Shown here: positions 3,132 through 8,352 of the stretch, piece by piece
Numbering within the stretch: the stretch's first letter is position 1
How the letters are laid out: each line of letters opens with the position of its first letter
From: Lentimicrobium sp.
Lineage (GTDB): Bacteria; Bacteroidota; Bacteroidia; Bacteroidales; Lentimicrobiaceae
DNA length: 47,119 nt
Direction of reading: 5' to 3'
Assembly (NCBI GenBank): GCA_023957275.1
Contig: JAMLHF010000034.1
Span: 1 to 47,119 of the forward strand
Program-made: the position numbers and the translations under genes
The notes under the pieces: generated by a model
What the model was told of the DNA's origin: nothing
What the model saw: the letters and a program-made list of their open reading frames with translations, nothing else
The model's database searches: none

Positions 3132-4295
3132 TCATACAATAAGAGCTTCGCCCATTCGCTCCATCGCCCCCTTTATCATCTCCTCATTATCCTTTGTATA
3201 ATGATTCCTTATAACATCTTTCGTATCGCCAACAATCATTTCACGGACTTCAATGGGGACATCCAGTGATAATAGAATTGTATTGACCGTGGAACGGGCG
3301 CTGTGAAATGGTTTGTTACCAGTGATGCCCAGATCTTCTTTGATGGGCTTCAGGTATCTGGCTTCATTCCCCTTAACAGAAAATACTTTTTGTTTGTCAA
3401 AGCCCCGGTTCGGAATTAGTTCTAGTGCTTGCGGAATTAGAGGCAGTTTTGCTGGTTTTTGTGTCTTGTGCTGGGTGAACTCTACCCAGGTTGTGCCAGT
3501 TGTTGGTTTTATGTTCTCCCATCGTAATTCCTTTATATCCCGCCAACGCATTCCGGTATAACAAGCGAAAAGAAAATACCTTAAAACCTCCTGTGGGATT
3601 GGTTTCAATTCCTTTTTATCAAACAATTCACGGAGAGATTTGACTTCCTTGATTGTTAATGGCTCGAATGTGCCTTTAGGGTTTTTTAGGGGGAAATGAA
3701 TAAAGACATTCTTAGTAATACGATCGTCTTTAAGTGCCTGATTCAGGATTCTCCTGACAAACTCAAGGCTTTTATTCCATGTTATTTCTTTGTTATTCAG
3801 ATTATTTATCAAAAAATCCCGGTATTCGATAATGAAGTCCTTGCTGTTTACATAACCTATGGTCAGCGATTCACTGAACATTTTCAGCTTATTGGTTTGT
3901 TTTTCATAAAAGATCAGGGTTTCGTGCGAAAGTCCTTGCTTCGTTCTCTTAACCTCATCGATATAGTCATAGAACGAATCGTTGTTAAAGCTGTTCGAGT
4001 TATATAGCCTGACAAACTCATTCATTGTCGGATTGATATCGCCGATCAGAAAATGCCGTTCTATGGCATTTACCTTGGTATTGGCAGTGGTAATGGCGAT
4101 TCTCTTCTTGTGAAAATCCGGATCCGATTGCTTGACGGTTTCATTTTTAGCATCAAAATCCTTTTTAAGCACATCGAAGCCCAATGGAATATACTTGACT
4201 TCCCGCTGAATGGTAACCCTGAGCACGACCGGGTAGGTTTTATTGACCTTTGGTCTGTCAGGCCGATACATTATCATCGTATTTACTTTGCTCAT
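3132..4295 (-). CDS. Tyrosine recombinase (phage-type integrase)
   Basis: 387 residues: an N-terminal arm-binding domain common in Bacteroidota integrases (about 5-85), a SAM-like core-binding domain (about 100-205) and a catalytic domain (about 210-380). Active-site residues are visible: R250 (TGMR), K277 or K280 (HKTQK), H331 and R334 (HSAR) and the nucleophile Y366 (NHYTK). The position that is usually His or Trp before the tyrosine appears as D357 (VGDT), a tolerated but unusual change. It starts 147 bp from the 3' end of tRNA-Cys and reads away from it, the standard arrangement for an island integrated at a tRNA gene. It would excise or integrate the AT-rich segment to its left. Confidence 0.93.
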   Translation of the reverse strand: MSKVNTMIMYRPDRPKVNKTYPVVLRVTIQREVKYIPLGFDVLKKDFDAKNETVKQSDPDFHKKRIAITTANTKVNAIERHFLIGDINPTMNEFVRLYNSNSFNNDSFYDYIDEVKRTKQGLSHETLIFYEKQTNKLKMFSESLTIGYVNSKDFIIEYRDFLINNLNNKEITWNKSLEFVRRILNQALKDDRITKNVFIHFPLKNPKGTFEPLTIKEVKSLRELFDKKELKPIPQEVLRYFLFACYTGMRWRDIKELRWENIKPTTGTTWVEFTQHKTQKPAKLPLIPQALELIPNRGFDKQKVFSVKGNEARYLKPIKEDLGITGNKPFHSARSTVNTILLSLDVPIEVREMIVGDTKDVIRNHYTKDNEEMIKGAMERMGEALIV

Positions 4296-4311
4296 GATAC
4301 AATGGTTTAAC

Positions 4312-4331
4312 TGGTAAACAATTGGTAAACA
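4312..4331. promoter_or_regulatory. Tandem TGGTAAACA sites upstream of integrase
   Basis: TGGTAAACA is repeated at 4312-4320 and 4323-4331, 11 bp apart, about one helical turn. The repeats lie between the integrase start and tRNA-Cys. This fits arm-type binding sites or an autoregulatory operator of the recombinase, by position only. Confidence 0.4.
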
Positions 4332-4367
4332 TTTTCACAAAGTAATGAAAAATTTCTTTCTAAAACA

Positions 4368-4399
4368 AAAAATCAGGACTCCTTAAAGCCCTGATTTTT
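4368..4399. terminator. Bidirectional hairpin terminator
   Basis: AAAAATCAGG (4368-4377) pairs with CCTGATTTTT (4390-4399), a 10-bp stem with a 12-nt loop. The A tract and T tract give a U-rich tail in both directions. It would end the tRNA-Cys transcript before the integrase. Confidence 0.7.
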
Positions 4400-4442
4400 A
4401 TAACATTTGACATTTAAGTTTTCAATCCTTAAATGTCCTTTG

Positions 4443-4513
4443 AGGTCTCGAGCGGATTCGAACCGCTGTAGAAGGTTTTGCAGACCTCTGCCTAGCCACT
4501 CGGCCACGAGACC
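4443..4513 (-). tRNA. tRNA-Cys (GCA)
   Basis: A full 71-nt cloverleaf on the minus strand: acceptor GGTCTCG/CGAGACC; D arm GCC/GGC; anticodon stem GAGGT/ACCTT with loop CTGCAAA, giving anticodon GCA; T stem AGCGG/CCGCT with loop TTCGAAT. Discriminator base 73 is U, the identity element of tRNA-Cys. CCA is not encoded. Its 3' end faces the integrase and is the likely attachment site of the island; I saw no second copy of the 3' end within 1-3131, so the other island end should lie outside the window. Confidence 0.96.
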
Positions 4514-6041: not shown

Positions 6042-7385
6042 TTAAAGGCCCATATACCAGGAAGCAATTGAAAAATAGATTACTACTCCGGAAATATCCG
6101 CAATGGAAGTAATCAGCGGAGCACTGGCCGTGGCCGGGTCGAGTTTCAGTTTGGTGAAAATAAAGGGGGTGATCATGCCGATCAGGCTGCCTGACATTAC
6201 TGCCAGAATCATAGTGGCGGCTACCACAACAATATATTGCGGGGCGCGTACACTGGCAATCAGGCTGACACCGGCCGCCATAGTGACTCCAAGCAGGAAG
6301 GAAACCAGGAACTCCCTGCCCAGCAGCCTGAACCAGTCTTTGGTTTCCACATCTCCGATGGCTAGGGATCGGATCATCAGGGTTGCCGACTGTGCTCCGG
6401 CGTTTCCCCCGCTGCCGATCAGCAGTGGCAGGAAAAAGATCAGCGATACGGCCGATTGTATCACACCTTCGAAGGTCGCCAGGGCCGCCCCCGAAAATAC
6501 ATTCATAAACACCAGCACGATCAGCCAGAGGATGCGTTTCTGATAAAGAAAAAAGATTTTTGCTTTCAGCGGATTGACAATGGCCGCCTGGAATGATCCG
6601 AATTTGTGAAAGTCTTCGGTGGTTTCTTCTTCCACAACGTCCATCACGTCGTCAACCGTTACAATGCCCAGCAGCAGTCCTTCCGAATCAAGCACCGGCA
6701 GCGCGATGCGGTCCTGATCCTGGAAAACCCGGATAGCGACCTCCTGATCGTCGAAAGCATTGAGCGAAACAAAATGCTCATCCATCAGATCCCGGACATG
6801 TTGCCCGGGGTCGGCCAGAATGATTTCCCTGATGCGGATATCGTCAATCAGTTTCCAGTTGTCATCAACCACGTAAATCAGGTTGAGTGTTTCCGAATCC
6901 CTGCCGTACATCCTGATATGTTTCAACGCCTGTTCGACGGTAAAATCGGGCTTTACGGCAACAAATTCGGGCGTCATCAACCTTCCGATGCTGTGTTCGG
7001 GATATCCGAGCAGGCGGGTGGCAATGAGCCGCTCTTCCGGCGACAACAGCTGTATCAGCCGCTGGGTAATGTTGCCGGGAAGTTCTTCGAAAAACGCCGT
7101 ACGGTCATCTGGATCCAGGTCGTTGAGCAGGCCTGCTACCCTGTTGGCATTTTTGGCCAGTCCCTCGATAATTTGTTCCTGCTTCTCGTGCGGGAGGTAC
7201 TGAAAGGTATTCTTTGCCTGTTCCCTTGGCAATAACCGGAACAGGATGATGTCGTCCTGTTCGGGCAACTCGTCAATAATCTCTGCAATCAGGATGGGAT
7301 CCATATCCTCCAGCTCGTGCCTGAGGCTGCTCCAGTCTTTATTCCTGATCAGATCTTCGAATAATGTGATTTCGGTTTCACCCAT
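6042..7385 (-). CDS. mgtE: Magnesium transporter MgtE
   Basis: 447 residues, normal family length. Order: MgtE N domain of superhelical repeats (about 20-125), two CBS domains that sense intracellular Mg2+ (about 130-250), a plug helix, then five membrane segments (about 285-447) forming a Mg2+ channel. The conserved GNAGAQSATLMIRSLA and the last-helix motif DPATASAPLITSIADISG are present. The ATG at 7385 is preceded at 8-nt spacing by AAGGAG, a perfect Shine-Dalgarno, unusual in a phylum whose mRNAs seldom use it. Upstream lie a leader reading frame and competing hairpins (see separate entries). A GGGCC/GGCCC palindrome covers the stop codon. Confidence 0.96.
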   Translation of the reverse strand: MGETEITLFEDLIRNKDWSSLRHELEDMDPILIAEIIDELPEQDDIILFRLLPREQAKNTFQYLPHEKQEQIIEGLAKNANRVAGLLNDLDPDDRTAFFEELPGNITQRLIQLLSPEERLIATRLLGYPEHSIGRLMTPEFVAVKPDFTVEQALKHIRMYGRDSETLNLIYVVDDNWKLIDDIRIREIILADPGQHVRDLMDEHFVSLNAFDDQEVAIRVFQDQDRIALPVLDSEGLLLGIVTVDDVMDVVEEETTEDFHKFGSFQAAIVNPLKAKIFFLYQKRILWLIVLVFMNVFSGAALATFEGVIQSAVSLIFFLPLLIGSGGNAGAQSATLMIRSLAIGDVETKDWFRLLGREFLVSFLLGVTMAAGVSLIASVRAPQYIVVVAATMILAVMSGSLIGMITPFIFTKLKLDPATASAPLITSIADISGVVIYFSIASWYMGL

Positions 7386-7392
7386 TGATTGT

Positions 7393-7438
7393 TCTCCTTA
7401 CGGGTATTTGCTGCAAGGAGATACAAAACCCCCTGCAG
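7393..7438 (-). promoter_or_regulatory. Mutually exclusive hairpins before mgtE
   Basis: On the minus strand CTGCAGGGGG (7438-7429) pairs with CTCCTTGCAG (7420-7411): 10 pairs, two of them G-U, with an 8-nt loop. The first arm begins one base after the leader peptide stop codon. The second arm also contains TCTCCTT (7421-7415), perfectly complementary to AAGGAGA (7399-7393), the mgtE Shine-Dalgarno. The two pairings exclude each other, so the first hairpin would free the ribosome site and its absence would hide it. The sequences are seen; the switching is inferred. Confidence 0.6.
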
Positions 7439-7439
7439 G

Positions 7440-7481
7440 TTAGTGTTTAATCAGGCCACACGAATAGGGGTCGTCTTTCAT
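7440..7481 (-). CDS. Putative 13-residue leader peptide of mgtE
   Basis: ATG at 7481 opens MKDDPYSCGLIKH and stops at TAA 7442-7440. The frame begins about 17 nt after the inferred transcription start and ends one nucleotide before the attenuator-like hairpin of mgtE. The Asp-Asp-Pro run near the N-terminus recalls E. coli MgtL, whose acidic and proline codons destabilise ribosomes at low Mg2+. No Shine-Dalgarno is seen before it, which is normal in this phylum. Such a short frame could occur by chance; position and content are what support it. Confidence 0.5.
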   Translation of the reverse strand: MKDDPYSCGLIKH

Positions 7482-7504
7482 GGTCGGGTAATGGTTTGAA
7501 GGTG

Positions 7505-7512
7505 CAAAGATA
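7505..7512 (-). promoter_or_regulatory. -7 box for the mgtE leader
   Basis: TATCTTTG on the minus strand, an exact TAnnTTTG. The inferred start near 7498 gives a leader of about 110 nt, too short for the M-box magnesium riboswitch. Confidence 0.6.
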
Positions 7513-7682
7513 AGTTTTTCCTGCAGAAACCTGTTTTCATCGGTTCAATTTCCGGACAGAATCTGAACATTATTTCAATCAGGGGGTTAAATATTATTCA
7601 CCTGAAAGCTATTGTACAGGTTCAAAATCAAACATATAGCTTTCGCAGGCAGATTTATTCAGTTTGCGGATTACCGTTGCTT

Positions 7683-7690
7683 TATCTTTG
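7683..7690 (+). promoter_or_regulatory. -7 box for exported deformylase
   Basis: TATCTTTG fits TAnnTTTG. Transcription would start near 7697, which excludes the upstream TTG at 7612 as a start and selects the ATG at 7705, with an almost leaderless mRNA. Confidence 0.55.
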
Positions 7691-7704
7691 TAAAAATATT
7701 TCCT

Positions 7705-8352
7705 ATGCGTTGTTTGTATTCATTGGTTTTATGGCTTGCACTTTTTCCCGGCATTGTATTAAGTCAGGATTTTACCCCATCAGAGCAGGCATTGATTATG
7801 ACGGGGGATACGGCCGGGATGATGCGGGTGTTGCTTAGTACCTCTGCGGATGATCTTAAAGTACTCACAGCTGAAAGCGCCGATATCAGCCCTGATGAAC
7901 CCCTGCTTCCCCTGCTGGCGCAGCGTATGCTGCTTACCATGCGCGACACGGCCAACCCCGGCGTGGGCATTGCCGCCCCGCAGGTCGGGATAAACCGGAA
8001 TGTTTTCTGGCTGCAGCGATTTGATAAACCGGGATTTCCCTTTGAATTCCTGATTAATCCACGCATCCTGAGCTATTCCTCCCTGCAACGCAGGGGAGGG
8101 GAAGGTTGCCTTTCAATTCCGGATACCAGGGGTGAAGTGCTGAGGAGTTATGCCATTATGGTTGAATACCAGGATTATACAGGCGGATGGCATACCGAAC
8201 TGCTGGAAGATTTTACAGCCGTCATCTTTCAGCATGAATATGACCACCTGGGGGGTATGCTTTTTACCGAAAGGATCAGCGATCAGAAGCATACACCCGC
8301 CCTTCCGCTTCCTGAAGGTCTGGAACTGTTGATGATGCCTGCCGGCCGGTAA
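7705..8352 (+). CDS. Exported peptide deformylase-like protein
   Basis: 215 residues from the ATG at 7705. Residues 1-20 form a type I signal peptide (hydrophobic core, LS-Q cleavage), so the enzyme should be periplasmic or secreted. The catalytic part has all three deformylase motifs: GVGIAAPQ with Gln93, EGCLSIP with Cys135, and QHEYDH with His177, Glu178 and His181 as metal ligands and base. Classical deformylases act on nascent chains in the cytoplasm and have no signal peptide, so this one must have another role, perhaps on exported formylated peptides. An insert of about 45 residues separates the signal from the core. Confidence 0.88.
   Translation: MRCLYSLVLWLALFPGIVLSQDFTPSEQALIMTGDTAGMMRVLLSTSADDLKVLTAESADISPDEPLLPLLAQRMLLTMRDTANPGVGIAAPQVGINRNVFWLQRFDKPGFPFEFLINPRILSYSSLQRRGGEGCLSIPDTRGEVLRSYAIMVEYQDYTGGWHTELLEDFTAVIFQHEYDHLGGMLFTERISDQKHTPALPLPEGLELLMMPAGR

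Follow-up and report, generated by a model that had tools for sequence, protein, structure and literature searches.

In translational attenuators of the ErmC type, translation of a leader selects a hairpin that hides or one that frees the Shine-Dalgarno sequence (SD) of the following gene, and an antibiotic-induced stall on the leader frees it. Leaders that sense Mg2+ through destabilisation of the ribosome are enterobacterial in the accessible parts of two papers (PMC8092293, PMC11282234). MgtL, the mgtA leader of E. coli, has an acidic and proline-containing start (EPDP) at which ribosomes are lost when Mg2+ is low; its control runs via Rho-dependent transcription termination, the target is a P-type ATPase, and no SD switch is described in the available portion of that source (PMC11282234). 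MgtQ, the mgtB leader of Salmonella, is likewise acidic and is reported to combine ribosome destabilisation with the hiding or freeing of an SD; according to the available text it is flanked by two genes of an enterobacterial operon, and four RNA segments take part (PMC8092293). Magnesium transporter genes are also controlled by the M-box riboswitch, which is found with mgtE, corA, mgtA and NrmT operons carrying an MgtE_N gene. In the excerpt at hand, the M-box is a direct Mg2+-sensing aptamer, mostly combined with a transcription terminator and lacking a leader peptide, and its control of MgtE_N-nramp operons is placed mostly in Clostridia and Deltaproteobacteria (PMC4072509). The earlier note on this DNA knew of no leader-peptide control of mgtE in Bacteroidota. 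In agreement, no leader control of an Mg2+ transporter in this phylum is described among the open-access literature matches listed, the corA side being weakly searched, and a transcriptome paper on B. thetaiotaomicron covers leader-like sORFs in general, with corA and mgtE not mentioned in its accessible part (PMC7366714). The principle is known from MgtL and MgtQ; new, as far as seen, are the phylum, the layout, the context of the SD and a probable regulon that spans several transporter families, as described below.

The window analysed here is a stretch of 47,119 nucleotides from Lentimicrobium sp. (contig JAMLHF010000034.1). Features of the mgtE locus are collected in Table 1.

Table 1 Features of the mgtE leader locus in the window; ON and OFF denote predicted states
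Feature	Position	Strand	Basis
Bacteroidota -7 box TATCTTTG, fits TAnnTTTG	7505..7512	-	direct read of strand
Leader frame MKDDPYSCGLIKH, stop TAA (codons ATG AAA GAC GAC CCC TAT TCG TGT GGC CTG ATT AAA CAC TAA)	7440..7481	-	direct read of strand
Left arm CTGCAGGGGG of anti-sequestor hairpin	7429..7438	-	read, covariation, folding, stop-to-arm placement
Right arm, pairs with left arm (ON) or SD (OFF)	7411..7421	-	covariation, folding
Shine-Dalgarno AAGGAGA of mgtE	7393..7399	-	read, right:SD covariation, SD survey
mgtE, Mg2+ channel/transporter (MgtE_N, CBS pair, MgtE)	6042..7385	-	PF01769 (7e-33), PF03448, PF00571; TIGR00400 (8.8e-119)

The left arm begins one base past the leader stop and forms 10 pairs, two of them G-U, with the right arm (CTCCTTGCAG, 7420-7411), giving a hairpin of -16.1 kcal/mol when folded alone. 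The same right arm takes part in a second pairing, as TCTCCTT (7421-7415) is complementary to the SD (7399-7393); this alternative hairpin amounts to -13.3 kcal/mol. The leader stop is separated from the mgtE start (ATG at 7385) by 54 nt. Box, 13-codon frame, hairpin and anti-SD:SD complementarity had been proposed in the earlier note and are correct to the base, as is its claim that the two pairings are mutually exclusive, since both need the one right arm. Judged by its sequence, the -7 box (7512-7505) puts the transcription start 5' of the leader. At gathering score, Rfam models returned only a tRNA in the whole window and nothing at the leader site.

Conservation was followed in 80 named mgtE loci together with 30 loci, among them that of the window, taken from 60 genomes. 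The encoded MgtE shared at least 50% identity in 92 loci, and after removal of 8 exact upstream duplicates and 2 regions that were too short, 82 distinct upstream regions remained. Of these, 65 (window included) carry an acidic leader, in most cases with Pro as residue 5, and 17 do not. Leaders were called by the motif M[DEK][DEAKS][DEGSV][PS] with its start 71-124 nt upstream, and one MQKEEEP leader was added; the motif part fits just 2 of 255 sampled genes, one being the window mgtE. Leader length varies between 9 and 20 codons. Every one of the 57 distinct frames (one MQ-type excluded) places two or more acidic residues at positions 2-4, and Pro5 is present in 53, an acidic start of the MgtL/MgtQ type. 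The entropy at codons 2-5 was 1.26, 1.26, 0.99 and 1.55 bits for third positions vs. 0, 0.25, 1.16 and 0 bits for second positions, so that second positions are near-invariant at codons 2, 3 and 5 and third positions are variable. Typical leaders read MDEGPYHS..., MDEDPYPS... or MDDDPYPN..., and MKDDPYSC... in the genus of the window. Leader-bearing loci carry labels including Lentimicrobium, Perlabentimonas, Parabacteroides, Seramator, Odoribacter, Alistipes and Bacteroides sp., and occur also in MAGs labelled Delongbacteria and Lentisphaerae; two flavobacterial mgtE loci (Bizionia, Xanthomarina) are without a leader. Of 64 loci (one of the 65 being too short for this test), 54 have the motif TAnnTTTG at most 75 nt 5' of the leader, vs. 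a frequency of 0.052 in shuffles.

No leader of the mgtE type was seen at 44 loci of more distant MgtE relatives (L093-L108 and L115-L142; 25-47% identity); five of these (L105, L108, L123, L132, L136) have other short frames with an acidic start. Weak matches to a leader model in loci counted as leaderless (L069 with 20.3 bits, L028 with 19.3, L029 with 18.5, and others) were not upgraded. A leader covariance model (R1) identified the window site as the sole match in its genome at E up to 1, with 150 of 1074 first-look candidates scored, and gave three matches over 295 genomes of the class, window included, with 13 candidates scored per genome. One genome (G007, L091 1-4317) harbours a tandem mgtE pair in which the first copy has leader and SD and the second lacks both, thus providing a natural control pair.

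The position of the leader stop relative to the left arm is strongly constrained. With placement of the arm bounded by the stop, the distance from the leader ATG to the start of the arm is 35-59 nt and takes 14 different values, which fall in all three frames. A second placement by pairing alone agrees with the first in 61 of 65 loci, and the in-frame stop ends within -8 to +7 nt of the arm thus placed in 63 of 65, compared to 18 and 10 for the other frames. The spacing is therefore kept although leaders span 9 to 20 codons, and the stop TAA forms part of the arm (CTGTAA) in 21 loci. Because of this locking, a ribosome at the stop should cover the left arm; a ribosome at codon 5 (27 nt masked) would not reach it.

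Both competing helices covary in an alignment of 60 of the 65 leader-bearing loci. For left:right, 89.0% of cells are paired vs. 84.0% in shuffles, with double changes in 9 of 11 pairs; for right:SD, the corresponding values are 85.8% vs. 79.4% and 10 of 12 pairs. Neither the percentage paired nor the covariation score of either helix was matched in 500 shuffles, which ignore relatedness, and slid-register controls dropped to 44-56% paired. Extension pairs beyond the SD core, counted in a thinned set of 36 loci, reached 3.56 vs. 2.93 of 5 (0/5000 permutations), and RNAalifold run without guidance picks right:SD. With both helices covarying and the stop locked to the left arm, the alternative folds are tied to leader translation.

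Folding calculations over the 65 loci gave nearly equal mean energies for the two hairpins (-13.8 kcal/mol for left:right, -13.9 kcal/mol for right:SD), right:SD being the stabler in 29. The mean predicted accessibility of the SD, 0.09 in the free RNA, is 0.23 when a ribosome occupies codon 5 and 0.05 when it occupies the stop (0.06, 0.65 and 0.00 in the window), and the value at the stop compares to 0.45 when the stretch from stop to SD is shuffled (325 folds). A gain of more than 0.2 at equilibrium, codon 5 vs. stop, was obtained in just 25 of 65 loci. In a snapshot taken before the SD emerges, the left:right hairpin has a mean probability of 0.68 in free RNA, which becomes 0.87 when the ribosome is placed at codon 5 and 0.06 when it is placed at the stop (0.98, 0.98 and 0.00 in the window). 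As the SD-hiding fold often wins at equilibrium in the absence of a ribosome, the ON state would need co-transcriptional folding order. On these models, a switch is plausible as a choice during transcription and less so at equilibrium.

Similar leaders are found before other Mg2+ transporter genes, in related bacteria from both gut and environment. A model match (L113) and a related locus (L109) have a leader in front of an operon for a PRC/MgtE_N/CBS protein and an NRAMP protein. The latter (PF01566 in L109) shows DAGG where metal NRAMPs have DPGN in an alignment by eye; published NRMTs feature DxxG at this site in the available part of PMC8806188. A protein search yielded nine distinct MgtE_N/CBS genes, eight with a leader (e.g. 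MDEGPTYSKINKPQ; exception L146) and eight beside an NRAMP gene (exception L110), both being present in seven. L150 (G034), with no operon match above 150 bits, is outside this count. The leader precedes MgtE_N/CBS genes in three genomes outside the order (G123, G279, G328). One MgtE_N/CBS gene (L243 1135-2512, G037) carries the leader MDEGPAGLSPNITKLD and has no NRAMP, MgtE or CorA neighbour within the 6 kb read.

A pattern of leader plus SD that is blind to the transporter was applied to 295 genomes of the order; 17 of them gave 19 matches, which fall on 18 places, and the reversed control gave none. Eleven of these places precede Mg2+ transporter genes (mgtE 2, MgtE_N/CBS 4, CorA 5); behind three of the four MgtE_N/CBS genes an NRAMP gene follows, and at the fourth the contig ends. 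The remaining seven comprise four places inside long frames and three similar 23-codon frames without a long frame behind. These three (L154, L156, L163) have in common MDEKP...L followed by TAAGGAGC and are probably unrelated. The identity of CorA is backed by Pfam PF01544. CorA relatives occur in 46 of 218 genomes of the order, and among 30 of the 46 that were fetched, a looser rule, which fits 4 of 255 sampled genes, assigns an acidic leader to 23 corA loci. Many corA leaders represent a second type, MDDYH..., without Pro at position 5; a pattern for this type gave 12 matches in 277 genomes (control 1), all 12 before CorA. Two leader-bearing corA loci (L177, L189) are without an SD-like sequence. 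With the ribosome at the stop, the calculated SD accessibility is at most 0.05 in 18 of 22 corA and 9 of 11 MgtE_N/CBS loci, and the SD is not hidden to this level in the other 4 and 2, respectively. A relaxed leader pattern was discarded, as its 6 matches in 257 genomes of the class vs. 7 in the reversed control correspond to chance and it missed G123, G279 and G328. Leaders thus stand before MgtE, CorA and MgtE_N/CBS genes, the last mostly with NRAMP behind. Their similarity across unrelated transporter families supports Mg2+ as the signal, and a similar control probably acts on CorA and MgtE_N/CBS (plus NRMT-like) genes in related Bacteroidales.

Taken together, we consider it likely that the mgtE leader is a cis-acting translational attenuator that senses Mg2+ via the translating ribosome; its Mg2+ dependence and the direction of control are what we infer from sequence. 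At sufficient Mg2+, the ribosome would pass the acidic and proline codons, reach the stop and cover the left arm, leaving the right arm to pair with the emerging SD and mgtE off. At low Mg2+, the ribosome would pause or drop off at codons 2-5, allowing the left:right hairpin to form first, so that the SD would be unpaired once made and mgtE on. Such an Mg2+ switch, built from a leader peptide and competing hairpins, was the proposal of the earlier note. It gains support from the range of transporter targets and from the comparative tests: codon-level conservation of the frame, a maintained stop-to-hairpin spacing, compensatory changes in both pairings and the box upstream of the leader. On the other side stand the 17 leaderless mgtE loci, the seven pattern places that are not in front of an Mg2+ transporter gene, the corA leaders that lack Pro5, the corA and MgtE_N/CBS loci with an SD that is not hidden or is absent, and the modest equilibrium effect.

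By analogy, the Bacteroidales leader would share with MgtQ a short acidic peptide, SD control at the level of translation, an Mg2+ transporter as target and ribosome destabilisation. It differs from MgtQ in being promoter-proximal, in having three clear segments and in occurring in another phylum with other transporter families. The acidic and proline-containing start and the putative OFF state upon full translation of the leader resemble MgtL, and with the M-box it shares magnesium transporters as targets. In contrast to ErmC-type attenuators, a completed leader would hide the SD.

Several other readings of the conserved anatomy were weighed. In a four-segment version in the style of MgtQ or trp attenuators, leader codons 2-7 would act as segment 1 and pair with the left arm; an untranslated leader would then also be OFF, and ON would arise solely with a ribosome held at early codons. 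The leader:left-arm duplex is indeed stronger within a locus than between loci (-10.62 vs. -8.94 kcal/mol, 0/5000 permutations; p 0.02 in a thinned set of 18 loci), in 46 of 65 loci it is stronger than the average synonymous recoding, and the codon-5 ribosome state is the most accessible of the three by more than 0.05 in 31 of 65. Conversely, in fixed register this helix stays within the shuffle range (62/500 match its percentage, 81/500 its covariation score) and synonymous recoding barely shifts the early hairpin (0.68 vs. 0.73). We rate the four-segment version as somewhat unlikely. The attenuator might also respond to a signal other than Mg2+, such as Pro-tRNA, EF-P or slow translation in general, as ON is expected from any early pause and Pro occupies codon 5 in 53 of 57 leaders. 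However, the genes downstream are mgtE, CorA and MgtE_N/CBS (with NRAMP), and the MDDYH-type corA leaders lack Pro5, which speaks against a proline-based cue; overall, a different signal seems unlikely.

Translational coupling, in which ribosomes that finish the leader reinitiate at mgtE and leader translation means ON, would fit the strong SD and the 54 nt from stop to start in the window. Coupling would not call, however, for a conserved left arm in competition with the fold that hides the SD, and the SD is predicted to be hidden when a ribosome sits at the stop; we therefore regard this reading as very unlikely. Conserved, covarying hairpins are also what a ligand-binding riboswitch with an incidental leader frame would display. 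Against it stand the coding-type variation of the leader and the in-frame stop locked to the arm; in addition, no Rfam family matched the leader regions when 15 loci were searched at E up to 0.5. At this loose threshold the 15 loci gave three unrelated matches, all outside the leader regions, and the M-box (ykoK) model matched neither there nor in the window. A ligand-binding riboswitch with an incidental leader frame, judged against the known Rfam families, is highly improbable, and a translational attenuator that would respond to Mg2+ is the reading we prefer.

The SD of this attenuator is itself unusual. Across the window and 400 kb of a congeneric genome, AGGAG or GGAGG lies at -20 to -4 of just 4 of 256 predicted genes (control slice 1), starts being taken from the longest frame and some possibly wrong. 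The same motifs precede 53 of 61 leader-bearing mgtE genes (4 with uncertain starts excluded) vs. 6 of 17 leaderless ones. Given the rarity of SDs in the lineage (4/256), the mgtE SD is special. Other AAGGAG/AGGAGG sites among the 256 genes were seen only at L212 ~11908 and L214 ~3130, ahead of a frame of 904 aa whose start resembles a signal peptide and a frame of 457 aa that resembles a sensor kinase, respectively, both judged by eye. Patterns for the 16S 3' end had no match in G000, G001, G013 and G016. Bacteroidia ribosomes are reported, in the accessible part of PMC9976891, not to recognise SDs, which counts against SD exposure as the step that turns translation on. The anti-SD of these ribosomes is normally concealed by bS21, bS18 and bS6, so that low Mg2+ may have two effects. 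On the mRNA side it would abort the leader and free the SD; on the ribosome side it would loosen the 30S platform or favour bS21-poor ribosomes and so free the anti-SD. This combined picture, a Bacteroidales Mg2+ regulon under leader-peptide control whose SDs are among the few real ones of the cell, with Mg2+ sensed on both sides, is speculative and in our estimate improbable. If true, the gain in translation would be confined to the leader-controlled transporters. The attenuator also bears on the role of the few strong SDs in an SD-blind lineage.

The probable occurrence of MgtL/MgtQ logic in Bacteroidales, on unrelated transporter families, suggests that ribosome stability may be a widely used gauge of Mg2+. 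With Parabacteroides, Bacteroides, Alistipes and Odoribacter among the leader-bearing labels, a candidate regulon in gut Bacteroidales emerges.

Two further observations concern the surroundings of mgtE in the window. Its divergent neighbour (7612-8352) encodes a peptide deformylase of 245 residues (PF01327 spanning 82-225), the extra N-terminus of which resembles a signal peptide by eye. Further along, a tyrosine recombinase gene (PF00589) adjoins a minus-strand tRNA gene (4443-4513), and the pair (3132-4513) has the typical appearance of the edge of an integrated element.
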